NCBI RefSeq assembly: GCF_016403105.1 | Contig: NZ_CP046155.1 | Span: 1-64,000, forward strand | Origin: Leptolyngbya sp. BL0902 | Lineage (GTDB): Bacteria > Cyanobacteriota > Cyanobacteriia > Phormidesmidales > Phormidesmidaceae | DNA length: 64,000 bases | Reading direction: 5' to 3' | In this document: positions 151 through 16,900 of the stretch, piece after piece | How the letters are laid out: every line of letters starts with the position of its first letter | Numbering within the stretch: position 1 is the first letter of the stretch | Translations under genes and position numbers: made by a program | Notes under the pieces: model-generated | The model's input: only the letters and a program-made list of their open reading frames with translations | Database searches by the model: none | What the model was told of the DNA's origin: nothing

Positions 151-3100
151 CTAGTTGCTAATACTGAGGACACGGGCTTCAGGATTCCACTCCACAAGAA
201 TGGCTAGATCTTTTAGATCCCCTGCTCGGAGGTACGTATTCCCCTGGTAGTCAATGGAGTGGGACAAATCGAGATCCGAAATCGCCCCATTCAAGGCGGC
301 CACTCCGGCTTGGGGAACGTAGGCTCTATGATCCACAATGAGGCCACCTGAGGGCCAGTCGCGACCGTTGACACTCAGCTGGATGGGGTCGATGTCCATC
401 GACTGACAACAGTCTAGAATGGCCGTCCGAGACTGGGCGTCCCACTCCACAGATGTCCCAGAATCTGCCAGGTAGGCCAAGCTAACGTAGGGCTGGCCTT
501 GGTATGGACGCTGGTACTCCCTCGGTACGTCTTCCTCCACCAAGCCCCACCGCTGGGCAGACTCCAAGGCTACATAGGCTTTTTGATCCATCAAGACGCC
601 CTGCTGGTTGTAGCGCACCTCACCGACCCGAAGGTTAATGCGGTGGGCCAAGTCAGAACTCACTTGCGCTGGAGGAGAAGCCGAGGGGGCGTCTCCAGTT
701 TTAGCAATCAGCGGATAGCGCCAAATCCCGACCACCAGACCGATCAAAGCTACACTGCCTAGTCCCAGCGTCGCGACTATGGGCAGGATAGGCCAGGTTC
801 GCCCTGCGGCAGCAGTTGGAGCCGCACTGGTGGCCCCTGGCACTAGGGGCTGTTCTGGGGAGGGGGGCCTATTTTGGTAGTCAGCATCATACCAGCGACA
901 AGCCTGCAACTGTTGGGTTAGGCCCTCAACCCTAGGCTGATAGATTTTTTGATCGGGCATGGTGATCGGGCGACCCTGCAACGGGCCATAGTCCGAATCG
1001 AGCAAGGATGGAGCCAATAATACCCGGTAGGTTTCGGGGTGAATGGCCAATAGCTTGAGATCGTACAGGGTTTTGAGGTCAGACCTTAGCACTAGGCATT
1101 GGGAGGGGTGGTCATCCCGATGGTGATCCTGGCTAGCCACCAAAGCAATGTCTAACAGCGGTTGAACATCGCAGCCCGTAATGGCACATCGCCCATGGTA
1201 GAGATCGAGCACCTTCCGCTGAAGGGAATATTGCACCCGTCGCCCTAGGGCCGCCTGAATAGACTGCACCACGCGGGTGTTCATGGCGGGGGTAGCCTTG
1301 GCGGCGGCAAAGGTGGATGGTGCCGTGGGCGAGGCGTTAGGCGCTGTCGGCGTGGCCTCTGTCTGTTCGGCGCTAGGGGTGGCAATGGGATTAGCGCTAG
1401 GGGTGGTGCTAGGGTCAGCGATGGGGGTGGTGCTAGGGTTAGCGATGGGGGCCAAGTTCACCACAGACTCCCCAGCGGCGGCAACGTCCCCGGAGAGGGG
1501 GGCGGCACCACCAGCGGGATCAACAGCGGAGTCTTCGGGCAGGACAAAGCAGGTTTCCTCCTCCTCCGTCGCCTCAGCCTCCATGACGTCGGCTCCAGCA
1601 ATCTCTATTCCCACCACCTCATCGGCAAGAAAATCCGAGGTCGCCTGCGGTCTGGCCTCCAACCCTTGGTAGCCGAGGAAGCTCTGATCCTGGTAGTCCT
1701 GGGCCAGATAGTCCTGGCTGGAAGGAGACTCTACGGTGGGCATCTCGGGGGAGGCCAGGGAGAAGGGGTTCTCTGCCCCAGACAAAGCATCCCCATCCAC
1801 CGCTGCCGCTGCCGGGTCGTCCACCCTAGCCTTAGTATCTTGGAAGCCCAGAAATAGGGTCTCTTCCTCGGATAATGGCGGACTCGCCACCTCGGTATCC
1901 AGGGGGACAATGGAGGGGTATTCTGCCAAAGCATCCACGGGAGAATCGACAGCGGTAAGGCTTGATTCATGGAAGGGATCGGTAGCATCTGGGGCGACAA
2001 AAGCTGCGGCAGTGAGGTCTTCAGCCTCTAGAGGTGCATGGTGGTCTGAAGCGGTAGACCATGGAGCGTTGGAGTCGGTCAGGTTGAGGCCATTGTCTGA
2101 AGCTATTCTATGGAATGTGGGAGCATCATCCATGGAAGCACCCAAGGGAAAGAGCGGTAGGGTAGCTTCATCTAAAGGTTCAATCGCTAAGTTTTCAGGA
2201 TCGATTGGCTCTGTGTTTTCAAGCAAGTCCGGGGTGCCAAAGAAGACTTCAGCCTGGGGATGCTGGGCCTGATGATCATCCTGATCGCCATGGACATCAG
2301 CCTCTCCCATGGCAATGGCATCAATGGCCTCTAGCGCATCTCGATACAGGGCTTCATCGTAGAGCTCAGCGTCTACCTCCTCTTCGGCATACGGGTCTCC
2401 ACTGCCGTCCAAGTCGTGATCTGTGGCGATATCCTCTCCGCCATGGGAGGGTTCAGGATTGGCGTATTCAACGAGGGAAAAATCAGATCCTACCTTGCTT
2501 GAGCTCAGGTCAATTTCAGGGGAAAAACCCGATTGGGTGCTAGGGCTGGCCCCTGCACTGATGGAAGCCTCCTCATCGAGATAGTTCTGCGACACAGACT
2601 CTACCAAGAATGGGTTCGTTTCTTCCTCCGCTGCGTATTCGTAATCCTGAGCATCTCCCGCTTTGAGGTAAAGACCTTGATCAGAAGTCTGGGAGTTGTG
2701 ATCATCCTGAACAGGCTCATCTGCGGTAGTATCGCCCCCCCCAGGATATTCCCATCCCGGTACAGATCCTCCGAAATTAGCGCTGAAATCTCGATTTTCG
2801 CTCAACCAACGCTGCCCAGCTAAGCTTTCGGGCAGGATGGTTTCTGTGAGATCCACATCGCTGAGATCCACATCGCTGAGATCCACGTTGCTAAGGTTTG
2901 CACCCCTCAAATTTGCACCGCCTAGGACAACATTACTCAGGATTGAGCCTGAAAAATCTACTCCGCTGAGGTTGGTGCCCGCAAAGATGCAGTGGGTCAG
3001 ATTGGCCTTTCGCAGGCTGGCACCGCTGAGGTTAGCCCCACTCAGAATCGCCCCGGTTAGGTTGGCGTCAATCAGCTTTGCTCTTACCAGATCAGCCGCA

Positions 3101-3375
3101 ATCAGGTTAGTTTGGGTTAAGTTAGCTGAGGTTAGATCAACGTGATTAAGGGTTGCTCCAGCCAGGTTTGCATGGCTCAAGTTAGCCCTTTGAAGAATGG
3201 ATTCCTCTAGGCTAATCATCGTGAGCTTGGCATGGGCTAGATCGCCATCTCGAAGATCAAGGTTATGGAAGTGTCGTCGCCCGTCAGCGTATTCTTCCAG
3301 GAGGGTTTTGACGGGTATGGACGTTGGATTTTCTGAACCGTGGGAAAAATTAAATTCTGAATGGGGAAATCGCAT
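151..3375 (-). CDS. Pentapeptide-repeat / HNH-like / transmembrane fusion protein
   Basis: This 1074-residue protein has five visible parts. Residues about 35-185 are pentapeptide repeats of the A(N/D)Lxx type (for example ANLSHANLAGATL), expected to form a right-handed beta helix. Residues about 190-700 are an acidic, Ser/Thr/Pro-rich, probably disordered linker with NPF and DPF tripeptides. Residues about 715-800 resemble the HNH_2 family: the core YHGRCAITGC and the tail LRSDLKTLYD are recognisable, but the usual AH and LRADLH histidines are replaced (DIALV, SDLK), so nuclease activity is doubtful. A hydrophobic segment follows at about 863-888. The last 165 residues hold two copies of a fold reminiscent of copper-amine-oxidase-N/stalk domains. 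The start is the ATG at 3375. The pentapeptide part is certain; the other domain names are by motif recall. Confidence 0.85.
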   Translation of the reverse strand: MRFPHSEFNFSHGSENPTSIPVKTLLEEYADGRRHFHNLDLRDGDLAHAKLTMISLEESILQRANLSHANLAGATLNHVDLTSANLTQTNLIAADLVRAKLIDANLTGAILSGANLSGASLRKANLTHCIFAGTNLSGVDFSGSILSNVVLGGANLRGANLSNVDLSDVDLSDVDLTETILPESLAGQRWLSENRDFSANFGGSVPGWEYPGGGDTTADEPVQDDHNSQTSDQGLYLKAGDAQDYEYAAEEETNPFLVESVSQNYLDEEASISAGASPSTQSGFSPEIDLSSSKVGSDFSLVEYANPEPSHGGEDIATDHDLDGSGDPYAEEEVDAELYDEALYRDALEAIDAIAMGEADVHGDQDDHQAQHPQAEVFFGTPDLLENTEPIDPENLAIEPLDEATLPLFPLGASMDDAPTFHRIASDNGLNLTDSNAPWSTASDHHAPLEAEDLTAAAFVAPDATDPFHESSLTAVDSPVDALAEYPSIVPLDTEVASPPLSEEETLFLGFQDTKARVDDPAAAAVDGDALSGAENPFSLASPEMPTVESPSSQDYLAQDYQDQSFLGYQGLEARPQATSDFLADEVVGIEIAGADVMEAEATEEEETCFVLPEDSAVDPAGGAAPLSGDVAAAGESVVNLAPIANPSTTPIADPSTTPSANPIATPSAEQTEATPTAPNASPTAPSTFAAAKATPAMNTRVVQSIQAALGRRVQYSLQRKVLDLYHGRCAITGCDVQPLLDIALVASQDHHRDDHPSQCLVLRSDLKTLYDLKLLAIHPETYRVLLAPSLLDSDYGPLQGRPITMPDQKIYQPRVEGLTQQLQACRWYDADYQNRPPSPEQPLVPGATSAAPTAAAGRTWPILPIVATLGLGSVALIGLVVGIWRYPLIAKTGDAPSASPPAQVSSDLAHRINLRVGEVRYNQQGVLMDQKAYVALESAQRWGLVEEDVPREYQRPYQGQPYVSLAYLADSGTSVEWDAQSRTAILDCCQSMDIDPIQLSVNGRDWPSGGLIVDHRAYVPQAGVAALNGAISDLDLSHSIDYQGNTYLRAGDLKDLAILVEWNPEARVLSISN

Positions 3376-3682
3376 AGGACATCGAGATTTAAAAAGTGTA
3401 AGAAATGATAAATTGTGGGATTTTCTCGGTATGAATTTGATGCTCAGGCAATTTTATGTAGATGGTTGTGAGAAGGAAGGAGCGCACCCATCCTCAGCGG
3501 TCGCGCTTGATGCGGAGGGACGACAAAATGCCGTAGCCGTTCATCGCCGTTGAACCATAGCCCTCGAAAAGGCGATAGGCCACCTTTCGGACGACTCTCC
3601 CGCTAGGATATGAGGACTATCGCTAGACATCATAGAACCGTCTTCCTATAGTCTACAGCGAGGGATAGGGGGAAACAGGATT
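3376..3682. other. Intergenic region, no gene seen
   Basis: About 300 bases upstream of the pentapeptide/HNH gene. It is more A+T-rich next to that gene (3380-3440), where its promoter should lie, but I find no convincing -35/-10 pair. Short frames here have no protein-like character. Confidence 0.5.
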
Positions 3683-3871
3683 CTAAAACCAGATGCTGAG
3701 CCCCAGACTTCCGAGGATCTGACGATGAATCTGACGATTAACGTATTCTAGTTCCGCTAACCCTAGAATACCCAGCGGTGGCTCAGTATTAATAGGTTCA
3801 TCACGTTCATCACGTTCATAAAAATTAGGGAAGGCCAGCGACGGATCTTCGGGCTCCTGGCGATATAGCAT
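3683..3871 (-). CDS. Small hypothetical protein (62 aa)
   Basis: The minus-strand frame starts at an ATG at 3871; a TTG at 3916 would give 77 residues. The product is acidic at its N-terminus (RQEPEDPSLAFPNFYERD) and ends with a more hydrophobic segment (QILGSLGLSIWF). A 9-base direct repeat inside it encodes the ERDERDEP stretch. It is divergent from the pheT-like gene. I do not recognise a family, and the frame could be fortuitous; the ordered composition and lack of a competing frame are the only support. Confidence 0.4.
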   Translation of the reverse strand: MLYRQEPEDPSLAFPNFYERDERDEPINTEPPLGILGLAELEYVNRQIHRQILGSLGLSIWF

Positions 3872-3972
3872 GGGAGCAGTGGGAGGGTTCTGAGCTTGTC
3901 CTTGAACGGCTCCCAATCTGGGTTGAGCGCTTTTGGTTGACCGCCCCGCCCCTCTATTTACGGTTTTGACCC

Positions 3973-5601
3973 ATGCCTACGGTTACGTTTCCCCTGTCCT
4001 ACCTGCGGCGTCTTGCCCACATGCCCCTCGCTGAGATCGAAGCCCAAGCGTTTAACTATGGCTTGGAGGTGTCTCTGGGCGAGTTAGATCTTGATGTGGA
4101 GGTGACGGCTGAGCGCCCTGACCTGCTGGCGGCTGAGGGCTTTATGCGAGCTATGAATATCTACAGCGGCCAGCCCCGCTTGGTATCGGATACCCTAGCC
4201 GACTCGGGCTATCGGGTAACGGTGGAGCCAGCGGTGTTGGGGCTGCGTCCATACTTGGCGGCGCTGGTGGTGCGTCAGGCCCACCTTCAGGATGGCGGAT
4301 TGGAGGTGTTGATGCAGTTTCAGGAAAAGGTCACTCAGACCTTTGGCCGTCAGCGCAAAAAAATCGCCATTGGCATCTATGACCTCGATGGTCTGACGGG
4401 CCACCTCACCTACACCGCCCGTCCTAAGACTGACCTGACCTTCGTGCCCCTGGGGGAAACGGCCCCGATCACCGCTGCCGATATCCTCGATCACCATCCC
4501 GCCGGACAACTCTATGGCTCCACCCTTCCAGCGGGGGAGATGGTGCCCGTGCTCCATGACGCCGAGGGCCAAATTCTCTCGATGCCGCCCATCATCAACG
4601 CGGCGGGGGTCGGAGAAATTTCGGCCACCACCCGTCACCTGTTCATTGATATCACCGGAATTTTGCCCCAAACGGTGCAGGAGACCGCCAACCTTTTAGC
4701 CCATAATTTCCTGGATACTGGGGCTGAGGTGCAGACGGTCACGGTGACAACCCCCACCGGAACCCACATTACCCCTAGCCTTGCCCGTCGCGCCGTCCCC
4801 TTTTCCGCCCGCTTTCTCAACGAGATTATGGGATCGGCCATTCCCAAGGCCAAGTTGGGGCAGGTGCTTGCCCGCATGGATTTGACCGTGAGCGGCACCC
4901 ATGAAGTCTATGTACCCACCTACCGCACCGACCTTCTCAGCCAGGTGGACTTGGCTGGAGACCTGATGGTGGCGCTTGGATTAGACCACTTTCAGGCCGA
5001 GCCCCTCTCCGTGAAGTTTCACCTGGGCCAAGCCGACGACCTGCGGCAGTTTGTGTTTCGGGTGGGCGATCTGTCCCAGCGCCTGGGGCTGATGGAGGTG
5101 AAGGGTCACGTCCTCACCGACCCCACCCTGCTAGATTGGTTTGCCGACCAATACCTGCAAACCAGCAATGCCAAAAGCCGCACCTACAGCGCCACCCGCA
5201 CCACCCTTCAGGTTGGGCTGCTGGAGGTATTGTCTCGCAATATCCAGGCCCCCAAGCCCATCAACCTCTACGAAACCGGGGAAGTGCTGCGCCTCACCGC
5301 GGCTGGAGAAGGCGCAGAATCCCAAGCCTGGGGCTTTGCCAGTTTAGATGCCCGCGCCTCCTTCTCGACGGCCAAAGCCTACATCCAAACCCTACTGCGG
5401 GCCTTGGGGATCACCTACACCCTCACCGCCGGACACCAACCCTACTACATTCCAGGGCGATCAGCCCAGGTGCAGGTGGAAGGAGAAACCATCGGCGAGT
5501 TTGGTGAAATTCACCCCCGCCTGCTCAATCGGTTTTCCTTCCCAGAGCCCATTGCCATGGGTGAACTCAACCTCAGCCAGATCTACCGCCTGACCCCCTA
5601 G
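3973..5601 (+). CDS. Phenylalanyl-tRNA synthetase beta subunit-like protein, archaeal/eukaryotic type
   Basis: The 542-residue product matches the domain plan of archaeal/eukaryotic PheT (about 540-560 aa) rather than the roughly 800-residue bacterial subunit. Visible signatures are the N-terminal ERPDLLAAEGFMRAM, the B3/4 region with KIAIGIYDLDGL and FVPLGE, the stretch MPPIINAAGVGEIS followed by FIDITG, a B5-like segment (VPTYRTDLLSQVDLAGD), and the C-terminal catalytic-like fold with LYETGEV, YIPGRSAQV and IGEFGEIHP. The bacterial N-terminal OB-fold tRNA-binding domain and the C-terminal anticodon-binding domain are absent. No pheS lies nearby; the gene stands alone between minus-strand genes. 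In the family the beta subunit works only in an (alpha-beta)2 complex and carries the editing site. A role here in Phe-tRNA synthesis or trans-editing is inference. The start is the ATG at 3973 (MPTVTFPLSYL), typical of the family. Confidence 0.88.
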   Translation: MPTVTFPLSYLRRLAHMPLAEIEAQAFNYGLEVSLGELDLDVEVTAERPDLLAAEGFMRAMNIYSGQPRLVSDTLADSGYRVTVEPAVLGLRPYLAALVVRQAHLQDGGLEVLMQFQEKVTQTFGRQRKKIAIGIYDLDGLTGHLTYTARPKTDLTFVPLGETAPITAADILDHHPAGQLYGSTLPAGEMVPVLHDAEGQILSMPPIINAAGVGEISATTRHLFIDITGILPQTVQETANLLAHNFLDTGAEVQTVTVTTPTGTHITPSLARRAVPFSARFLNEIMGSAIPKAKLGQVLARMDLTVSGTHEVYVPTYRTDLLSQVDLAGDLMVALGLDHFQAEPLSVKFHLGQADDLRQFVFRVGDLSQRLGLMEVKGHVLTDPTLLDWFADQYLQTSNAKSRTYSATRTTLQVGLLEVLSRNIQAPKPINLYETGEVLRLTAAGEGAESQAWGFASLDARASFSTAKAYIQTLLRALGITYTLTAGHQPYYIPGRSAQVQVEGETIGEFGEIHPRLLNRFSFPEPIAMGELNLSQIYRLTP

Positions 5602-5678
5602 CCCTGCGCCTATCCCCGCCGCCCGCCTCAGCTATGTCGCCATCCAGCGGCGGATCGGGGCATCGGCCAGAACGCGAA

Positions 5679-5885
5679 TTAGTAGCTGAGTTTGAGGGCG
5701 TTGACGGGCACCTCATCCCAGGAATCTACGGTGCGGAGTTGGGCGACCCAGCCAGCCTCCCGCTGCTCGTCACTGAGATTTTCCACAAAGGACTGGTGGC
5801 AGGCTTGGGCCTGGGCTTCATTGGCGCAGGCAATGCAGGAGTAGATGATGCCAGAGGGATCGATTTGCTCGTTGATCCAAATCAT
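5679..5885 (-). CDS. Conserved small cyanobacterial-type hypothetical protein (68 aa)
   Basis: The frame begins MIWINEQIDPSGIIYSC and ends WDEVPVNALKLSY. An in-frame upstream start at 5936 would add 17 residues of low-complexity character, so the internal ATG at 5885 is preferred. It has two close cysteines (SCIAC) and a compact mixed composition typical of a folded small protein. It lies downstream of hmpF on the same strand (95 bases away), or could be its own unit. I recall similar small proteins in cyanobacteria but no established function. Confidence 0.65.
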   Translation of the reverse strand: MIWINEQIDPSGIIYSCIACANEAQAQACHQSFVENLSDEQREAGWVAQLRTVDSWDEVPVNALKLSY

Positions 5886-5980
5886 GGGCCGGAAAACCCC
5901 ACTAGGGCGCGAAGGACAATGGTTTAACCGTATCATGGGGCCGATGGGCCACCGTGGCTGCAGGCATCGGGCCGCCGCCG

Positions 5981-7741
5981 CTAAGACGCTGCCATTTGGT
6001 GGGTGGCGGCGTTCACCGCATTCATCACCGCTTGGCGCAGTTCAGCAATGGCCTGGAGTTGGTAGTCGTTAAACTCTTGCACCTTTGTGACGCCGTTAGT
6101 CAGGGTTTCGATGGACTGCCGCAGACCGTTGCTGCTGTCTTGAGCCGGGTTGAGCAGTTCTTCGCACACCGCGAGCTTCCCGGTTAGGGCGGCCAAGTCC
6201 TGCTGGCGCTGGCGCAGTTCCGCCTCAAAGGTCTCAATCGCGGTGCGGCGGGCGGCCAAGTCCTGTTCTTGGGCGGCTAGGGCTTCCTTTTGTTGGCCAA
6301 TGCTTTCCTGGGCTTGTTTGGCCGCTGCCTCCAGCGCCTGTATTGCCTCAACGGTCTGCTGCCGCTGTTCATCCACAGCATTGAGGAGGGGCTCTAGATT
6401 CACCGCATTCACCGGAGTTTCCTCTACCGTATGCCCCTGCCGTCGCCGCAGAACCGCCTGGTGCTGGCTGAGAATTTCCTCCCGCTCTAGGAGGTTCCGC
6501 CGCTGACCCACCAGGGTTTCGTTCAGCATCTGGTAGCGATCCTGCTCTTCCTCCAGCTCCGTCTCAATTTGCAGGCGCTCAAAGTCGTTGGCCTGCTCCA
6601 TTTTGGCCTTAATCTCCTCAATCGCCTGCCGCTCAAGGGCCAGTTCCTCTTCTTGATCCGACACAAAGCGGGACACCTTTTCCATATCCTTCTCTAGATC
6701 GGCCACCATGGTCGCCAGATCGTCTAGGGCCATAGCCTCCAGGGCCGCCACGTCTACCTTTTTGCTCAGGCGCACCTTATCGCTGGTGTTCAGCAGGTCG
6801 TAGAGTTGCTGGTGCAGGTTGCCCTGGGTCTGAAGGGTTTGGGAAAGCTGCTGGATCTGATCCTGCTGATGCTTGAGCGCTTGCTGGCGCAGCTTCAAAT
6901 CTTCGCGCTGAGCCGTCAAGGCCGCTTCGGACTGGTGCCAATCGGCCCACCGCTGCACCAGGTCAATCCGCTGCTGATCAATGTCCTGCTGCTGACGATC
7001 CAGATCTTGGCGCTGGTTCTCTAAGGTTTGGCGATAGTCGCTGAGCAGACTTTGGTGATAGGTCAGCCCATCGGTGGCATTGGCGAGGGGCTCCCGCAGG
7101 GCCTCCATGGGCATGACGGCCTCGGCAAGGCGATTGAGCACCCCCTGAATTTGATCTACCTGGGCCTGATCAAGCCCTGCCGCCGGGGTTGCCTCTGCCT
7201 GCCGCTCTTCGAGCTGCCGCATTTGGCCGTTGAGCTGGGCCCACGCCCCTTCCAAATCCTGGTTCTTGCGGTCTAGATCTTCCTTTTCTTGGGCCAAGGT
7301 TTGTTGCAGGGTCTCCAGTTCTTGCCGCTGGGCCTCTAGTTTTTCTAGGTCGGCTTCCGCCTGCTCCAACTGCTCTTGGCGGGACTCAATCTCCATCTCC
7401 CGCCGATTCAACTCCTGACTTTGGAAGGTGAGGGACTGCTTCCACTGCTCGATCTCCTCCTCCTGGGTCTTTGATTTTTTGCTGAGGTTCGAGAAGGTTT
7501 GCAGAATGTTGGTGAGGGTGCGTCCGGCTTCGTAGTGGCGCTGAATCTGACGACTGCCGCTCACCTCCACCATCACCAAAGCCCCAGCATTGTAGGAAGC
7601 ATCGTCGGGGGCTGTGAGCGTCTCTTCGCCCGTCACCGCACTCCAGCTATACTCGTTGCGCTGGCAGGCGAGCAACTTGAACTCAGGCTTGCCGCTGCTG
7701 ATAAATCCGGTCTTTTTCTGGACTTCTGCTAAGTACAGCAC
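5981..7741 (-). CDS. hmpF: Pilus motility/taxis coiled-coil protein HmpF
   Basis: The N-terminal module of about 85 residues begins MLYLAEVQKK and is followed by some 490 residues of nearly continuous coiled coil rich in E, Q, L and R. This is the architecture of HmpF, a cyanobacterial protein needed for type IV pilus-driven gliding of hormogonia, which is known to act with pili at cell poles. The gene is divergent from a PatA/CheY/CheW/MCP/CheA cluster, the same arrangement recalled for the Nostoc punctiforme hmp locus. The start is a GTG at 7741 preceded by a GAGGA-like site. Family identity rests on the N-terminus, the coiled coil and the context together. Confidence 0.88.
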   Translation of the reverse strand: MLYLAEVQKKTGFISSGKPEFKLLACQRNEYSWSAVTGEETLTAPDDASYNAGALVMVEVSGSRQIQRHYEAGRTLTNILQTFSNLSKKSKTQEEEIEQWKQSLTFQSQELNRREMEIESRQEQLEQAEADLEKLEAQRQELETLQQTLAQEKEDLDRKNQDLEGAWAQLNGQMRQLEERQAEATPAAGLDQAQVDQIQGVLNRLAEAVMPMEALREPLANATDGLTYHQSLLSDYRQTLENQRQDLDRQQQDIDQQRIDLVQRWADWHQSEAALTAQREDLKLRQQALKHQQDQIQQLSQTLQTQGNLHQQLYDLLNTSDKVRLSKKVDVAALEAMALDDLATMVADLEKDMEKVSRFVSDQEEELALERQAIEEIKAKMEQANDFERLQIETELEEEQDRYQMLNETLVGQRRNLLEREEILSQHQAVLRRRQGHTVEETPVNAVNLEPLLNAVDEQRQQTVEAIQALEAAAKQAQESIGQQKEALAAQEQDLAARRTAIETFEAELRQRQQDLAALTGKLAVCEELLNPAQDSSNGLRQSIETLTNGVTKVQEFNDYQLQAIAELRQAVMNAVNAATHQMAAS

Positions 7742-8487: not shown

Positions 8488-8596
8488 AGAAGTAAGCTAG
8501 CGGCCCCTAAGCCGACGGGTAGCCTCTCCTCCGCTTTACCTTCGACCGCGCTATCGACCTTCTCTCACCTGTCTTTCCTCTACATTGTGTTGCTGC

Positions 8597-9871
8597 ATGC
8601 AGGGCTATTTGTCTGAAATTGATATTCGCAGCATTTTGCAGTTGATTGAACTGGGCCAGCGCACCGGGGAACTGTACCTGGAAAGTTATGGGGCTCATTC
8701 CCATAAGTATTTGGGGCAAGGATCCGACGGGGGGCCAGATTTGGCTGAGACTACCCAGTCTTGGCTGGTCTTTTTGGCCAATGGTCGCCTAGTCTACGCG
8801 GGCACCACCGACAATAGCCTCAACCGCCTGCGAGATCACCTCCATCGCTACGGCATTGACAAGTCCCTCCCTGACCCCACCACTATTTCCGCCATCGCCG
8901 CCCTCAACTCCCTGGAGTATGGCACCCTGTGGGCCATGCTAGAGCAGCACCTGCTCACCCCCGAACAGGGGCGGGCCATCCTCAGCCACATGGTGCGCGA
9001 AACCCTCTTCGACCTGCTGAGTCTGCGCCAGGGATCCTTTGTCTTTCAGCTCAGTTCGGCCCTTAGCCCCCAGTTGATGACCCACAAGGTCAGCTCCCTG
9101 GTGACTGGCATCACCCAGCAAATTCAGACCTGGCACAAGCTCCATCCCCAGCTTCAGTCCCCCGATCAATGTCCGCTGTTGGTGGATGCAGACGCCTTTC
9201 GGGCCAGTCTTTCCGATGTCGCCTACCAGCGGCTGCATCCCTGGCTAGATGGGCAAACCTCCCTGCGGCAGATGGCTCGCTACCTCAATCGCGATCTGGT
9301 GACGGTGGCGCGGTTGTTGATCCCCGCCATTCAGCAGGGCTATGTCACCTTGGCTCAGCCTGCGGTGAGGAGTGGGACGGCGTCTCCAGCGGTACGAGCT
9401 TGGCCCCAGCGCCTGCCTCGCATTGTCTGCGTGGATGACAGCGCCACCATCCGCCAAACCGTAGAGCGTATCCTCGACGGCCAGGGCTATGAGGCCACGT
9501 CCATTGGCAATCCCCTCAAGGCTCTAGGGCTGCTGTTCCAGCTTCAGCCCGACCTGATTTTGTGCGACATCGCCATGCCCGAACTGGATGGCTATGAGCT
9601 CTGCGCCATGCTGCGCCACGCCAGCGCCTTCCGGCAAACGCCCATGGTGATGCTGACGGGCAAAGATGGCTTTCTAGACCGAGTTAAGGCGCGGATGGTG
9701 GGAGCCAATGACTACCTCACCAAGCCCTTTGGCCCCGGTGAACTGCTGGCCCTCGTTGAGAAATACGTTGGCCCTGGCGATCCGGATCGACCTCGACCGG
9801 ATAAGCTACTGGCCGATGCCCTAGAGGGTGATCTCGATCTTGACCTCAGTAGCGCGACCATGGCCCGTTAG
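8597..9871 (+). CDS. hmpA: PatA-type response regulator (HmpA/PilG-like)
   Basis: The 424-residue protein starts with a PatA-type N-terminal domain (DUF4388-like, MQGYLSEIDIRSILQLIE, about residues 1-265) and ends with a CheY-like receiver (about 277-395). The receiver has paired acidic residues (VDDS), the phospho-acceptor Asp324 in LCDIAMPELDG and a conserved Lys in TKPF. PatA-type proteins are output regulators of cyanobacterial pilus taxis (PixG/PilG/HmpA). An in-frame TTG at 8585 exists, but the ATG at 8597 gives the usual start. It heads the plus-strand taxis cluster. A 398-base gap to hmpB suggests a second promoter there. Confidence 0.88.
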   Translation: MQGYLSEIDIRSILQLIELGQRTGELYLESYGAHSHKYLGQGSDGGPDLAETTQSWLVFLANGRLVYAGTTDNSLNRLRDHLHRYGIDKSLPDPTTISAIAALNSLEYGTLWAMLEQHLLTPEQGRAILSHMVRETLFDLLSLRQGSFVFQLSSALSPQLMTHKVSSLVTGITQQIQTWHKLHPQLQSPDQCPLLVDADAFRASLSDVAYQRLHPWLDGQTSLRQMARYLNRDLVTVARLLIPAIQQGYVTLAQPAVRSGTASPAVRAWPQRLPRIVCVDDSATIRQTVERILDGQGYEATSIGNPLKALGLLFQLQPDLILCDIAMPELDGYELCAMLRHASAFRQTPMVMLTGKDGFLDRVKARMVGANDYLTKPFGPGELLALVEKYVGPGDPDRPRPDKLLADALEGDLDLDLSSATMAR

Positions 9872-10269
9872 CCCTGGGCCACCGTTGGGGGAAGGATGCT
9901 CCTGGCACATGGCGGGTTGCCCCAGGCAGGGACGAGGGTGATGGCAGCGGGTTTCCTAAGTCGGGTTTCATAGGTCGGGTTTCATAAGTATTTATTGCCG
10001 GGGTGGGTCAAGTTCATCAAGATTCGCCATAATTTGAACCAACGGCCCCCAGTGAGTGGTTGCGCCAGGGTTGGCCAGCGGTTTACTGGGGAGCGGTTAG
10101 GAAGCCGTGATAGCGGGTACGTTATAGATAGGTAGCCCATGGTGTCCCAAGGGATACTCTAGGGTGTTCTCAGGTGGGGCCTCCCATCCATGGGTCGCCA
10201 GATCTAGGGGCGGTGTCCCAGGGAGCCAGACCGTTTTTACCCCCATTGGGGATTGCATGGATCCGCATT
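9872..10269. other. Gap between hmpA and hmpB with a tandem repeat
   Basis: No gene is seen in this 398-base gap, which is unusually long inside a taxis operon. It holds a three-copy 14-base tandem repeat (9947-9988) and A+T-rich stretches near 10030 and 10120 (GTTATAGATA) that might serve a promoter for hmpB-hmpE. The in-frame extension of hmpB up to 10174 has no receiver-domain similarity. Confidence 0.5.
9947..9988. repeat. 14-base tandem repeat, three copies
   Basis: Consecutive units GCGGGTTTCCTAAG, TCGGGTTTCATAGG and TCGGGTTTCATAAG run head to tail 75 bases after the hmpA stop. The last two differ at one position. It could be a regulatory repeat or a slippage product. Confidence 0.75.
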
Positions 10270-10638
10270 ATGAGTACAGTCTTGGTGGTAGAGGATAGCC
10301 TGCCGCAGCGAGAAATGATTACTAGCTTGCTTCGGGGGGTTGGCCTACAGGTAGATACCGCCGGGGATGGGGTGGAAGCCCTCGAACATCTTCAGGGGCA
10401 ACTCCCGGATGTGATTGTGCTGGATATTGTCATGCCTCGGATGAACGGCTACGAGCTGTGCCGTAAGTTGAAGGCGGATCCCTCTACCCAGCATGTGCCC
10501 GTAGTGCTGTGTTCCTCCAAGGGGGAAGAGTTCGACCGCTATTGGGGGATGAAACAAGGGGCCGACGCCTACATCGCCAAGCCCTTTCAGCCCGCCGAAC
10601 TGGTGGGCACCGTCAAGCAACTGCTCCGGGAATCATAA
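10270..10638 (+). CDS. hmpB: CheY-like response regulator (HmpB/PilH-like)
   Basis: A single receiver domain of 122 residues beginning MSTVLVVEDSLPQRE. The acidic pocket (EDS), the phospho-acceptor Asp52 in VLDIVMPRMNG, the conserved Ser in LCSSKG and Lys in AKPFQPAEL are all present. There is no output domain, so it acts by protein contact or as a phosphate sink. It is 19 bases upstream of the cheW-like gene and heads the hmpB-E run. The ATG at 10270 is chosen because the open frame upstream of it is not part of the fold. Confidence 0.9.
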   Translation: MSTVLVVEDSLPQREMITSLLRGVGLQVDTAGDGVEALEHLQGQLPDVIVLDIVMPRMNGYELCRKLKADPSTQHVPVVLCSSKGEEFDRYWGMKQGADAYIAKPFQPAELVGTVKQLLRES

Positions 10639-10657
10639 GACGTATCGAGGCGAAACC

Positions 10658-11188
10658 ATGGTTGGCAATCCCGATTTTTTAACCCAGGCTGGACAGGATC
10701 AAGATCCGGAACTGCAAGCCATTGAAACCCCAGAGGGGGAGTTATTCCTTCGCTTTTTTGTGACCGCCGACGATGAGTTTGCCCTACCCGCCACAGGGAT
10801 TCGTCGCATCATCGAACAGCCCCCGGATCGAATTACGCCCATTCCTAATGTTTCTCACCTGCTGTTGGGTACCCTAAATGAGCAGGGACGGGTGATCTGG
10901 GTGGCAGATTTGGGCCAGTTTTTAGGGTATAGTTCCATGCTCAACACCGACCGTCCGGAGATTTCGGTGATTGCGATTGAAGATCAAGGAACTATGTTAG
11001 GCTTAGCCGTCAACCGAATTGTGGGCACTCGCTGGCTCAACCCCGACAAAACGCAGGTTTCCAGCAACAGCCCCGACACCATGGCTCCCTTTTTGCGGGG
11101 GGAATGGGTGTTGCCCACCGAGGACAACAAAGCTCTGAGATTGTTGGATCATGTGGCGGTCATCCGCTCGGCCCGATGGGCAACCTAG
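10658..11188 (+). CDS. hmpC: CheW-like adaptor (HmpC/PilI-like)
   Basis: The 176-residue product is a CheW domain: strands around LFLRFFVTADDEFALPATGI, then RIIEQPPDRITPIPNV, LGTLNEQGRVIWVADLGQ, and a C-terminal LGLAVNRIVGTR...LLDHVAVIRS. CheW couples the receptor to the CheA kinase. It sits 60 bases before the receptor gene in the same orientation, as in other cyanobacterial taxis operons. Confidence 0.9.
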   Translation: MVGNPDFLTQAGQDQDPELQAIETPEGELFLRFFVTADDEFALPATGIRRIIEQPPDRITPIPNVSHLLLGTLNEQGRVIWVADLGQFLGYSSMLNTDRPEISVIAIEDQGTMLGLAVNRIVGTRWLNPDKTQVSSNSPDTMAPFLRGEWVLPTEDNKALRLLDHVAVIRSARWAT

Positions 11189-11248
11189 CGGCTAGGTTCC
11201 CCGGACGGCTTTTCATCCCTTAGACAAAGGCACTGGCAGGAGAAGGTT

Positions 11249-13882
11249 ATGGCTTCAGGCATTGATTACTCTCAAGCTTATCAAAAAGCTGAGAGGGCCT
11301 ATATCCAGGGCAACTATCAGGATGCCGCAGCCGTTATCGACGCGCTGGCGGAGGAATATCCTGAGGATCCAAGCGTGCTGCTGCTGCGCGGGCATATCTA
11401 CTGCTATGGGCTGCAACAGTATGAAGTTGCCAGCGAGCAGTATAGCAATGTCTTGGCCTGCACCTCCGACTCGGAGTTCGTCGATTACGCCACCACCGGA
11501 CTCGACTATGTCAGCCAGTTTTTGGGCAGTGCTGGCCCGCCGACCTTTGACCCGGAGTCCATCGACAAAACCTTCTTCGATGGTGGGGAGAATCCTGCCT
11601 TTGATACCCTCAACTCCTCCAATAATGGGGCCGACAACTGGGATGACGACCTCGACCTCGACGCCTTCTCCGTGGATGCCGATGAGGCCACGGGGCTGAT
11701 GGGGGGGACGCTGGCGGAGGGCACGGCCAATCCCTTTGCGCCCTTGGATGGCGGCGGTGATACTGTTCCCGATGGCCTGAAGGGAAATCCCTTCTTAGCC
11801 CCTGACGCTGACGCTGACCTGGCCCAGAATGGAGAGATGAGCCCCTTTGGTCTCAGTAACCAAGATCCCTTTGCCGACGCCGACCAGAATCTCACCTTTG
11901 ATGCCGACATGGGCACCCTGGCCACGGGCGGCGGATCGGTCTTTGTTAGCTTTGACGATGAGCATGATGTCGAGGAATCTTGGCCTGCCATGGCCGACGA
12001 CGGCAGCGACGACATGACGGTTTTTGCCCCCGATGGAGCTCTCGGTGGAGACGACTTTAGCGACGAGGACTTTGGCAGTGGGATGGACGCTGAGGACGCC
12101 TTTAGCCGCAATGGCTTTGGCACAACGCCAACCCTAGATCGCGATGATGGGGCCACGGGCAACGTGGATTTCCTCGATGAGTTTAGTGAGTTTGACGATC
12201 TGGGTAGTCTGCCAGACTTTGAGCTCTCCGATAGTTCCGCTGGGTTTAGCCCTCCGTCCGTCGGCAGCACGGGCTTTGGCTCCATGGGCAGTGGATCGGA
12301 CTTTAGCGGCGGCGTGTCGGCCTTTGATCTGAGCGGATCCGCCGATCAAACCTCCATCAGCGACGACGAAATTTTTAGCATTGCCGGGGGGGCAGACAGT
12401 CTGCCCGTCTTTGCCCAGGCCGACGATGCGGAGGTGGAAGCTCCCCAGGACCAAGACTGGCTAGGGTTCTTAGACAATGCCCCCCTACCCACCAAAAACC
12501 TCATCATTGCGGCAACCGCCGGGGTGGCGGCGGCCCTGTCGGTGGGGGTGGTCAACGCCATTGCCTCCAGCATGATGCCCAGCCGCGATATGCCGAAGGT
12601 GGTGCATGCGGTCATGGCTCTGGGGGCAGGGGCCACAGGGTTTGGAGCCGCCTATGGGGCTGGCTACCTCTCCCAGCGGCGGATGCGGGAGAGCATTCGC
12701 GATCTCCAGAGTCAGTTTGACTCGGTGATTCACCAGGGCAACCTGTCGGCGCGGGCCACGGTGCTGTCGGAGGATGAGTTTGGGCGGCTATCTAGCAGCT
12801 TTAACAAAATGGCCCGCGTGGTGCTGACCACCACCAGCGAAGCCCAGCGCAAAGCCCAGGAACAGGAGCAGGCCAAGGAAGACCTGCAACGCCAGGTGAT
12901 TCGGCTGCTGGACGACGTGGAAGGGGCGGCCCGAGGCGACCTCACGGTGCAGGCGGAAGTAACCGCCGACGTGCTGGGGGCCGTGGCCGACTCCTTCAAC
13001 CTCACCATCCAAAACCTGCGGGAAATTGTGCAGCAGGTGAGTGTGGCCGCCCGCCAGGTGAGTAAGGGATCGACGGAGAACGAGATTTTCGCCCGCAGCC
13101 TGTCGGCGGACGCCCTGCGCCAAGCGGAGGAACTGGCCGTCACCCTAAACTCGGTGCAGGTGATGACCGACTCGATTCAGCGGGTGGCGGAAAGCGCTCG
13201 CGAGGCCGAGGAAGTGGCCCGGTCGGCATCGTCCACCGCCCTCAAGGGGGGTGAATCGGTGGAACGTACCGTGGCGGGGATTTTAGAAATCCGCGAAACG
13301 GTGGCGGAAACCACCCGCAAGGTGAAGCGGCTGGCGGAATCCTCCCAGGAAATTTCTAAGATTGTGGCCCTGATTTCCAACATTGCCTCCCGCACGAACC
13401 TCCTGGCCCTCAACGCCAGTATTGAGGCGGCTAGGGCCGGAGAAGCAGGGCGGGGCTTCGCCATTGTGGCCGATGAGGTGCGACAACTGGCCGACCGGGC
13501 GGCGAAAGCCTCGAAGGAAATTGAGCAGATCGTGCTGCAAATTCAAAGCGAGACGGGCGGCGTGATGACCGCCATGGAGGAGGGTACCCAACAGGTAATT
13601 GAGGGCACCCGACTGGCGGAACAGGCGAAACGATCCCTGGAGGACATCATTCAGGTGTCGAACCGCATCGACGTGCTGGTGCGATCCATTACCGCCGACA
13701 CCGTGGAGCAAACGGAAACCTCCCGCGCCGTGGCCCAGGTGATGCAATCGGTGGAACTGACGGCCCAGGAAACCTCCCAGGAGGCGCAGCGGGTGTCAGG
13801 ATCGCTCCAAAACCTGGTGGGGGTGGCCCGCGATCTGCTGACTTCGGTGGAACGGTTTAAGGTGGAAAAACGCGAAGGGTGA
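11249..13882 (+). CDS. hmpD: Methyl-accepting chemotaxis protein (HmpD/PilJ-like)
   Basis: The 877-residue receptor begins with a TPR-like pair of helices (about residues 5-70). A long acidic disordered stretch follows (about 75-410) that holds NPF, NPF, SPF and DPF tripeptides. Two hydrophobic segments lie at about 417-475, with almost no periplasmic loop. HAMP-like helices follow (about 478-600), then the MCP signalling domain, whose hairpin tip reads [20 protein letters not shown]. With no sizeable periplasmic domain, signals are probably sensed in the cytoplasm or through partners, as recalled for PilJ/HmpD. It is flanked by cheW and cheA genes. Confidence 0.9.
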
Positions 13883-13945
13883 GGGAGCCTTGGCCGCTGG
13901 CCCTAGGCTTTGGGATATCGAACAAGTGTTTGGAAGGGAACCGCC

Positions 13946-16900
13946 ATGCTGCCTGAAGATCAAAAGCGAATCTTAGGGTACTTCATTGAGGAAGCCAAGG
14001 ATCACCTCAATACCATTGAGCAGGGGTTGCTCAACCTAGATGCCACCATCCACGACTCAGAGATGGTGAACGAGGTGTTTCGGGCCGCCCACTCGGTGAA
14101 GGGGGGAGCCGCCATGCTGGGCATTAACAGTATGCAGCGCACCGCCCACCGCATGGAGGATTTCTTCAAGGTGATGAAGGAATCACCCCTCACCCCAGAC
14201 CAAACCCTAGAATCGATGCTCCTGCAAATCTTTGATGGCTTGCAGGAGCAGTTGGATCATCTCCAGAGCCCCTACGGTCTCACCGAGGATCAGGCCCAGG
14301 TGATTATGGCCAACTTGGAGCCCGTCTTTGTCCAGGCCGAAACTCATCTCACCAGTCTCTCTGGGGCAGCGGCCCCGGCAGCGGCCCCGGCCACCACCCC
14401 GCCCCCCCCGTCGCCTGTGGCCGCGACCAAACCCTCTAGCCACCCCGAAACTAGTGCCCTTCAGTTGGTCTTTCGCAGCGACATTCCAGCCCTGCTGAGG
14501 GATATGCTGGCCACCTTCAAGCAAGCCGATAACGATACCTCGCGTCAGCAGTTGGCTCACCTGTGCCAACGGCTAGACAGTCTGGGGGAACAGCTAGAGG
14601 TGCCCCAGTGGTGTCAACTGGCGCAAACCGTGGGGCAGGCAGTGGGCAACCGCAACGAAACCTATCGATCCCTGGCTCCGGTCGTGATTAAAGACCTCAA
14701 GCAAGCTCAGGATTTGGTCTTGGCTGGACAGGTCAGTCGGGTAGCTCCCTCCGAGGCACTGCTGGCTCTGATGCCACCCCAGCCCACCATCCTTGAGGAT
14801 GACTCGGCCCTGGATGCACTGCTGGCCGAAGCCCTCACCAACGGCACCGACGGAGAGGACTTAGCCGACCTCTTTGCCACCGCCGAAGCCAACCCGGAGG
14901 CCAACCTCACCCTCGACATGGACGACAGTTGGCTCGATCAAATGGCCGCTGATGAGGCCGCTGATTTAGCCCAGGGCGACCTAGCCGACGTCTTTGGTAA
15001 CCTGGAGGAAGCCGCCGTCCCGCCCAGGGAATCCGATGTCTTTGGCAGTCAACACCACCCCGGCATTGGGCCACAGGTTGGCCCGGAGGAATTAAACAGC
15101 CTCGCCGATCTCTTTGAGGGGGAACAGATCAGCCTAGAGGACATCTGGGAGGAGGCCGACCTAGGGGAGAGCGACCTTGACACCGCCGATACCGCCGACG
15201 CCGATGACATTGATAGCGAGTTCGCAGACCTCTTTCAGACCGGAGCGGCCCCAGAGGCTGAGTCTGCCGCCGATGACGATATGGTCAGTCTGTTTGGGGA
15301 TGCTCTAGAACGGAGCTTGGTGATGGAGGAGACTCCGGCCCCGCCTAGCCCCGCGTCCCCCTCTGCCGTGGATGCGGCTCCAGATTCGGCCCCTGCCGAG
15401 GCCAAGGGTGGGCTGACCCAGGCCGGACAGTCTGGGCAAGCGGCTCCCGGTAATGAAGACGCTGGGGACAGGGGTGCCGAGTCTAGCGTCACTTTATTTG
15501 ATCATCCCGATGCGGCTCCCCCTAGTCCTGCCGCCCCCGTGGCTGACATCGACGAGTTTTTTGGGGGAGAGGCGGATCATACTCCGGTCGCCAAGGTTGC
15601 CGCCGATGATATGGATGACTTCTTCACGGAGGTGGCGGATCCCTCACCCCAGCGCCCTGCAGGTCAAGCAGCTCGCCCTCCTGAGCCCAAGGCCGCAATG
15701 GCCCCACCCGCCGCCGCTGCGCCAGGGTCTGCGGCGGCTCCAGCCACCGAGGCCAAGGCCGCTGCTCCGGTAGCCGCAGCGATGCCCCCAGAGCAGCCAC
15801 CCGCACCGCAGCCAGAGTCGCCCCCAGCCCCGGTAAGGGCGGGAGATTCAGAGCGTCCTCCGGCGGATAGAGAGTTAGACCTCCTCTTTGATCAACTCGA
15901 TCAAGACTGGGTAGACGAGACTTCCCCCGACGATCTGGCAGCGGCTGAGGCCACAGATCCCTTTGGGCTAGCCGCAGATTTTGAGCTGGCGACGGATGAT
16001 CTAGACGGGGTGGGCGATCTCACCTTCGATATCGCGTCTGATCCGATGCTGGGGGGAGAGATCGCGGAGGACATCGCTGCCGACCTTGACCTTGACCTTG
16101 ACTTTGGCCTTGAGGCAGCTACCCCATCCTCAGCGGATCAAGATCTTGGCTTGGCTGATCCCTTTGGAGGAATTGACCTAGATACCCTAGACCTGATCGC
16201 CGCCCCAGATAACGCACAACCTGCCAGCCCAGACCGTCGCCCCCTGGAGGCCACCGCCCCCCCCCAAGCAGATTTCCCCGGGGCCTCGGCGGAGGGAGAC
16301 GACGACTGGCTGACGGAACTGGATGACCTGGTGATGGAGGATGGGGCCAACGGAACCAACGGAACCAACGGAGCCAACGGAACCAATGGAACCAACGGAG
16401 CCAACGGAGCCGCCGCCACCGCCGATCTCGTCGATTTTGACGACTTCAGTGACCTGGAGGCGTTGTTGGGAGATGAAAGCCCCGTTCCGCCTACCCCACC
16501 TGCGCCGCCCGTGTCCCGTCCATCCAGCCCGCCGCCCGCCGTCAGCGCCGATGAGGACAGTTTTGATGACCTCGAAAAACTCCTGGAAGGGGCCGACCAG
16601 CTAGGGGGATCCGCACCCTCAGCGGGGGTTCGACGGGGGGGTGGAACCTCCAGCGGTCGGGCTCCCCGCCGAGCTAGCGCCGTCACCGACCAAACCATGC
16701 GGGTTAACGTTAGCCACCTCGACAACCTCAACAACCTGATGGGGGAACTGGTGGTCAACCGGAACTCCCTGGAGCAGGATCAAGAGCAGCTTCGCCAGTC
16801 CTTGGATAACCTGCTGAACCAGGTGCAGCAGCTCAATGATGTGGGCCAACGGATGCGCGATCTGTACGAGCGCTCGCTGCTAGAAAGCTCCTTGATGGCC

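Follow-up and report, generated by a model that had tools for sequence, protein, structure and literature searches.

A gene for the β-subunit of an archaeal/eukaryotic-type phenylalanyl-tRNA synthetase (PheRS) in a cyanobacterium raises the questions of whether its product belongs to a working enzyme and, if so, why the host should keep it. The window analyzed here is a stretch of 64,000 nucleotides corresponding to bases 1-64000 of the 4.31-Mb contig C1, from a genome of 4.71 Mb with a completeness of 99.99. The open reading frame, located at positions 3973..5601 on the plus strand, begins with an ATG codon and encodes a protein of 542 residues. An earlier note on this DNA described the product as following the archaeal PheT plan from end to end, and this is borne out. 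All of the motifs quoted in it are present, and the curated archaeal PheT equivalog model, TIGR00471, matches with 325.6 bits against a cut-off of 282.65 (5.2e-97), with residues 1-536 of the protein aligned to positions 1-549 of the 551 in the model. In contrast, the bacterial PheT model, TIGR00472, scores 112.5 bits where 402.65 are required and covers residues 233-538 only. The protein is thus not a bacterial PheT, a placement that the earlier note regarded as fatal to its view.

The domain content agrees with this assignment. The B5 and CLM domains score above their Pfam cut-offs, and the B1 (23.7 versus 26.8) and B3/4 (22 versus 29.3) domains lie below them. As had been proposed, the bacterial tRNA- and anticodon-binding domains are absent, with neither tRNA_bind nor FDX-ACB reported by Pfam in the 542-residue protein, whereas both are found in the bacterial PheT of the same genome. 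The closest solved structures by sequence are human FARSB (4.5e-48) and a fragment of Pyrococcus horikoshii PheT (2.3e-40). An AlphaFold2 model, built from a 15-sequence alignment and having a mean pLDDT of 84.8, superimposes onto the N-terminal fragment of the Pyrococcus protein (2cxi) over 347 columns at 2.4 Å with a target TM of 0.90. The match to the human subunit, 3l4g_B, is looser overall (E 3.5e-43, target TM 0.54), as are the full-length eukaryotic PheT matches in general (target TM 0.51-0.54). With a whole-length model match above cut-off, no bacterial tRNA_bind or FDX-ACB domain, an archaeal/eukaryotic fold, and the editing residues described below, the open reading frame encodes a genuine archaeal/eukaryotic-type PheRS β-subunit.

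The editing site was compared with that of P. horikoshii PheT, as the earlier note had suggested. Residues A141, L202, S211, N217, D234, and T236 of the archaeal protein correspond to A132, L194, S203, N209, D226, and T228 here, and all six are identical in the window protein. Of the P. horikoshii positions, L202, S211, D234, and T236 are taken by us to belong to the editing site. The part of the gene spanning the mapped B3/4 residues runs from 4366 to 4656 on the plus strand. Across 36 cyanobacterial rows the six residues are kept in 34 (with two gaps), 36, 35, 36, 35, and 36, respectively. Both A141 (PMC4263187) and N217 (PMC3275996) are known editing residues of P. horikoshii PheT.

The earlier note stated that no pheS lies beside the gene, which is true for this genome, and referred to the β-subunit as stand-alone, which does not hold. 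A search of the genome with the PheS core domain gave four matches, two of which were above the cut-off. One of these, with 264 bits, is an archaeal-type PheS of 485 residues encoded on the minus strand at C1:1755688-1757142, approximately 1.75 Mb from the archaeal pheT. Its score with the archaeal-type PheS model NF003210 is 415.3 bits against a cut-off of 350, versus 226.4 for the bacterial PheS, and an α-subunit of the PheRS-A type is therefore encoded in the same genome. The second is a bacterial PheS of 333 residues at C1:4144902. A complete bacterial PheT of 813 residues was found in the genome search at C1:1627616-1630054. The bacterial pheT and the pheS genes of both types, for which the earlier note had proposed a search, thus all reside on contig C1. 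The genome holds two intact PheRS gene pairs, and two expectations, that of a bacterial enzyme in the same cell and that of a second synthetase with its α-subunit elsewhere, prove correct. A partnerless β-subunit is ruled out by the archaeal-type PheS.

The solved relatives closest in sequence to the 485-residue PheS are the human, fungal, and Plasmodium cytosolic proteins. Its structure model is mediocre (pLDDT 67.5), with human PheS, 3l4g_C, as the best match in the PDB. In the stretches forming motif 2, motif 3, and the phenylalanine pocket, most positions are identical in all 34 lettered rows (of 35), with 8 of 58 varying. Among the invariant positions is A453, which would be the equivalent of A294, the specificity alanine of Escherichia coli PheS (PMC4263187). 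The editing motifs of the bacterial PheT, placed from residues named in PMC3275996, are likewise kept, in 36-37 of 37 rows at key positions, five of the rows being from non-carriers.

On the basis of these and the following data, the window gene probably encodes the β-subunit of a complete and functional second PheRS of the archaeal/eukaryotic type, a horizontally acquired and deeply divergent accessory isozyme. The subunit would pair with the distant archaeal-type PheS, most likely as an (αβ)2 tetramer. The predicted enzyme would charge tRNA-Phe(GAA) with phenylalanine in the PheS active site, and the B3/4 site of PheT would clear Tyr-tRNA-Phe. Observations that speak against this reading include the nature of the tRNA, one carrier that lacks the archaeal PheS, and another that lacks the bacterial PheT. 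With regard to the first, the tRNAs identified at 41 genomic places include one tRNA-Phe(GAA) and no second tRNA-Phe. It carries A73 and, in our own numbering, U20. Position 20 is an identity element, being G20 in yeast and Aeropyrum pernix and U20 in E. coli (PMC9976931). The archaeal-type enzyme would consequently have to tolerate a bacterial tRNA, and charging is an assumption.

The second and third observations emerge from the distribution of the genes. Among 57 relatives, archaeal PheT is present in all 26 searched genomes of the genus, the window's own included, and in G029, G030, G032, and G041. The genus is, we assume, the one named Nodosilinea in GTDB. Weaker PheT matches among these relatives span the C-terminal part only and were counted as bacterial PheT. 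Archaeal PheS is found in 29 of the 57, which is the PheT set minus G003. Of 388 genomes sampled from the class, 35 carry archaeal PheT and 34 archaeal PheS, and the two lists are again the same except for G003. These PheT carriers fall into 9 of 159 genera; 25 are members of the window's own genus, leaving 10 of 363 genomes outside of it. Among 386 genomes sampled across the phylum, which do not include the other carriers, archaeal PheT was observed in the window's own genome alone. The earlier note would have been refuted by proof that this is the only pheT and is widespread in all cyanobacteria, and neither is the case, given that a bacterial pheT is also present and that the archaeal type is confined to 35 of the 388 class genomes.

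In total, 36 carriers were found. Archaeal-type PheS is present in 35 of them, although in G024 only as an N-terminal piece of 181 residues at a contig end, and a search for the PheS core gave an archaeal-type core in 34 of the 36 and none in G003. This last genome, Leptolyngbya sp. DLM2.Bin27, is 86% complete and contains PheT with no archaeal PheS. Bacterial PheT is present in 35 of the 36 carriers (40 of 41 searched genomes) and is missing in G029; it is fragmentary in G005, G021, G024, and G237, in some of them at contig ends. Bacterial PheS, counted after matches below 100 bits had been dropped, occurs in all 36, with the copy in G024 consisting of two fragments. The genomes G003 and G029 are draft assemblies such that gaps are a likely, though not proven, explanation for the missing genes. 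Note that G029 contains archaeal PheT, archaeal PheS, and bacterial PheS, and the absence of its bacterial PheT reflects either an assembly gap or a true loss. A second, partial bacterial-type PheT that is 52% identical to the query lies at G262:C66:41520-42887; that genome has a contamination value of 5%, and the copy is perhaps a contaminant.

The arrangement of the two archaeal-type genes differs among carriers. In G030, G074, G200, G237, and, as judged by coordinates, G262, pheS and pheT are adjacent on the same strand, and all five of these genomes lie outside the window's genus. In the remaining 30 carriers of both, the genes lie on separate contigs or no less than 0.4 Mb from each other, a count limited by contig breaks in the drafts. 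Given the adjacency in five carriers, the simplest history is that of an operon that was probably split later. Accordingly arranged, the pair may have been acquired horizontally as an operon by a cyanobacterial ancestor, inherited within the genus with at least one move between cyanobacterial families, and separated thereafter in most carriers.

The gene arrangement also bears on the suggestion of the earlier note that the β-subunit might be a free-standing editing factor, acting on Tyr-tRNA-Phe in trans without an α-subunit. Such a role would accord with the intact editing site and with the lack of an adjacent pheS in this genome, but an archaeal PheS occurs in 35 of the 36 carriers and is next to PheT in five, so that PheT is not found as a rule without its cognate subunit. 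Moreover, the CLM and B5 domains are retained, and the evolutionary distances of the two subunits are correlated, as detailed below. We consider a free-standing editing factor to be very improbable.

The genes surrounding pheT in the window show no evident link to tRNA. On one side, on the minus strand at 151-3375, is a gene for a 1074-residue protein with pentapeptide repeats at its N-terminus and a long acidic middle region of low complexity. On the other, also on the minus strand, is that for a 586-residue coiled-coil-like protein (5981-7741) with a sub-threshold match to DUF4200 only. Beyond it, at 8585-18631 on the plus strand, lies a chemotaxis/phototaxis-type cluster encoding a DUF4388 and response regulator protein, a response regulator, CheW, a methyl-accepting chemotaxis-type protein (MCP) with HAMP, and a CheA-like hybrid kinase. 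Relatives of both the pentapeptide-repeat protein and the coiled-coil-like protein adjoin pheT in Phormidium sp. FACHB-1136 (G002). Across 20 pheT and 14 pheS neighborhoods, flanking genes are common only within subclades, and neither conserved linked genes nor a biosynthetic cluster was observed across the genus.

With respect to origin, a PheS tree of 53 rows, 14 cyanobacterial genomes being represented, gathers the archaeal-type cyanobacterial sequences into a single clade (100/99), on the side of archaea and eukaryotes and apart from bacterial PheS. Joining them with the bacterial-type PheS of cyanobacteria is rejected (p-AU 0.013, with long branches flagged). The clade sits beside the human and fungal sequences (99/96), a placement that is not relied upon because of a warning that long branches meet there. 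In a tree of the N-terminal part of PheT, the cyanobacterial clade (100/100) is separated by a branch of 2.2 changes per column from the sampled Nanohaloarchaea, P. horikoshii, and eukaryotes. As outgroups, a single archaeal phylum was represented by 28 genomes, 27 of which gave a match, together with human, one fungus, and half of the P. horikoshii protein. Over the N-terminal part, the window PheT is 30% identical to that of P. horikoshii, 29% to that of human, and on average 32% to those of the Nanohaloarchaea. No close donor is apparent among these sampled groups. The Nanohaloarchaea were the only archaeal matches of one contig scan with exact short peptides, which reveals close relatives only. 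A recent transfer from them is not supported, given the identity of approximately 30% and the long separating branch.

Other cyanobacterial archaeal-type PheT copies are 49-83% identical to the window protein, versus approximately 30% for archaeal ones. This difference, together with the presence of PheT in 26 of 26 genomes of the genus, argues against archaeal DNA having been binned or misassembled with that of a cyanobacterium. The genome does score 2.71% contamination, but pheT is part of a 4.3-Mb contig bearing the other three PheRS genes as well, and it is flanked by chemotaxis-type genes. Contamination is contradicted by the contig context and by the genus-wide occurrence, and its probability is negligible.

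At least one transfer between cyanobacterial families, besides vertical descent, probably took place, as indicated by conflicting placements of G074, a member of family f3. In the tree of concatenated archaeal-type subunits this genome lies inside family f1 (99/99), and in the bacterial PheRS tree it groups with family f24 (100/100); both trees contain 20 of the 36 carriers. In single-gene trees of 16 genomes, the corresponding branch has support values of 84/94 for PheT and 94/95 for PheS. A phage or plasmid origin was also considered. No place covering 80% of PheT was found in the phage and plasmid collections and none covering 80% of archaeal PheS in plasmids at E 1e-20, and that origin was rejected. 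Two scans of viral contigs, each a weak test with two short peptide patterns, revealed no relative.

Both gene pairs are under purifying selection. The median dN/dS values within the genus are 0.113 for archaeal PheT, 0.103 for archaeal PheS, 0.080 for bacterial PheT, and 0.040 for bacterial PheS, calculated from pairs with dS below 1.2 only (161 of 325, 204 of 300, 169 of 253, and 195 of 300). For genome pairs in which all four genes are present, the archaeal PheT is more divergent than the bacterial one in 230 of 231 pairs within the genus, and likewise for PheS, with median archaeal/bacterial distance ratios of 1.69 (PheT) and 2.11 (PheS). Between genera these ratios are 1.22 and 1.39, and of 234 pairs, 209 (PheT) and 217 (PheS) show the greater divergence in the archaeal copy. 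From the dN/dS values and distance ratios, both PheRS pairs are maintained and the bacterial one is the more tightly constrained. The bacterial PheRS would thus serve as the housekeeping enzyme and the archaeal-type as a conserved accessory isozyme. Note that dS for archaeal pheT between G000 and G002 or G021 (L001, L003, L004) is 0.88 and 1.18, far higher than the 0.31 of bacterial pheS, which could reflect either exchange among members of the genus or a looser constraint on codons.

That the archaeal-type pair evolves faster would also be consistent with a partial relaxation or with an altered task. In the latter case the enzyme might supply an aminoacyl-tRNA or adenylate for a use outside bulk translation, or it might prefer another aromatic amino acid. 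The 1.7-fold (PheT) and 2.1-fold (PheS) greater divergence of its subunits, as genus medians over pairs, and the long branch leading to the cyanobacterial clade would suit such a change. The phenylalanine pocket and motifs 2 and 3 are, however, nearly invariant, the editing site is conserved, and neither a second tRNA-Phe in this genome nor conserved linked genes were found. A changed function is accordingly unlikely, if far less so than an editing factor without a partner.

The distances of archaeal-type PheT and PheS, with those of the bacterial PheRS removed, are correlated with a partial r of 0.56 over 22 genomes of the genus (permutation p 0.001), in which pheT and pheS are unlinked, and of 0.75 over all 28 genomes (p 0.0005). 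Only near-complete genes were used, and the Mantel-type permutation leaves some shared ancestry in the correlation. It fits, rather than proves, a physical complex of the two subunits.

How does this accessory PheRS compare with known systems? In Andam & Gogarten 2011 (PMC3191353), Spirochaeta, Borrelia, and Treponema are described as having acquired an archaeal-type PheRS that replaced the bacterial enzyme. The spirochaete and cyanobacterial cases are alike in that archaeal-type α- and β-subunits were both acquired by bacteria, and the sizes are similar (513-528 and 514-573 residues, respectively, versus 485 and 542 here). They differ in that the bacterial enzyme is described as replaced in the spirochaetes whereas here both are kept, with bacterial PheT in 35 and bacterial PheS in 36 of the 36 carriers; in addition, pheS and pheT are separated in most cyanobacterial carriers. 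With the PheRS-A enzymes of archaea and eukaryotes (human FARSA/FARSB, 3l4g; P. horikoshii PheT, 2cxi) the cyanobacterial enzyme shares the domain plan, fold, and active- and editing-site residues, but the identity is only approximately 30%, and it resides in a bacterial host with a bacterial-type tRNA-Phe. The PheRS-B of the same genome has the same predicted reaction and a common CLM/B5 core in PheT, but its PheT bears tRNA_bind and FDX-ACB domains and its PheS belongs to a separate clade.

Synthetase duplications are frequent according to PMC4787780, which also describes a cyanobacterium, Anabaena, that has two synthetases for the same amino acid. Of the threonyl enzymes T1 and T2, the second copy serves in zinc deficiency (PMC4787780), whereas the PheRS copies here are of two domain-level types. 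The archaeal-type PheRS may be a conditional or resistance isozyme, retained because some inhibitor or stress that incapacitates the bacterial PheRS leaves it unaffected; this proposal is a narrower form of the accessory-isozyme reading, with a named cause. Retention through such resistance is plausible. The bacterial PheT kept in 35 of 36 carriers, its conserved editing motifs, the Anabaena precedent (PMC4787780), and the patchy distribution with probable transfer between families all favor it. Conversely, neighborhoods are shared only within subclades, window positions 3300-6000 contain no Rfam match up to E 0.1, and no upstream element common to archaeal pheT and pheS was seen in a partial view inspected by eye. 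On balance, this specific cause is a tentative proposal.

A still broader picture is likewise speculative. Two full PheRS enzymes of different domain types may act on one tRNA-Phe in an arrangement stable over the genus and beyond, and the archaeal-type enzyme would then represent another deep PheRS-A lineage, one adapted during its evolution to a bacterial tRNA-Phe. It would step in whenever its bacterial counterpart is disabled, be it by an inhibitor, by an analogue of an amino acid, or by a stress encountered in the habitat.

The stem "cyanobacteri-" is absent from the main text of PMC3191353. Among the open-access matches listed, seen in part and excluding most of the subscription literature, no description of an archaeal-type PheRS in cyanobacteria was found; one match used "archaeal-type" for transamidosomes. 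The portions available of PMC9437257, PMC4427996, PMC4893482, PMC5370408, PMC11580382, and PMC3436685 added nothing on cyanobacterial PheRS copies. As far as these matches show, what is new is that an enzyme of known type occurs in an additional group of hosts and is kept there beside the native enzyme. Transfer of archaeal-type PheRS into bacteria is known as replacement, in spirochaetes; here a whole acquired PheRS persists alongside the native enzyme and is subject to purifying selection. These cyanobacteria thus provide a natural test bed for why two synthetases serve one tRNA, how an archaeal-type enzyme handles a bacterial tRNA-Phe, and whether a spare PheRS protects against PheRS inhibitors. 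In addition, single-copy marker sets that include pheS or pheT may score such genomes as contaminated.

Two minor features were observed upstream of the archaeal-type genes. A weak sigma-70-like promoter match lies 5' of pheT at 3624..3652 on the plus strand; two such matches occurred in the region versus 1.2 expected, and it does not constitute functional evidence. Finally, in the upstream regions of archaeal pheS from 23 genomes of the genus (e.g., L159-L168), a TGNTANNCT block resembling an extended -10 element is located approximately 30-60 bases 5' of the PheS start and is conserved in nearly all of the 23 aligned regions.
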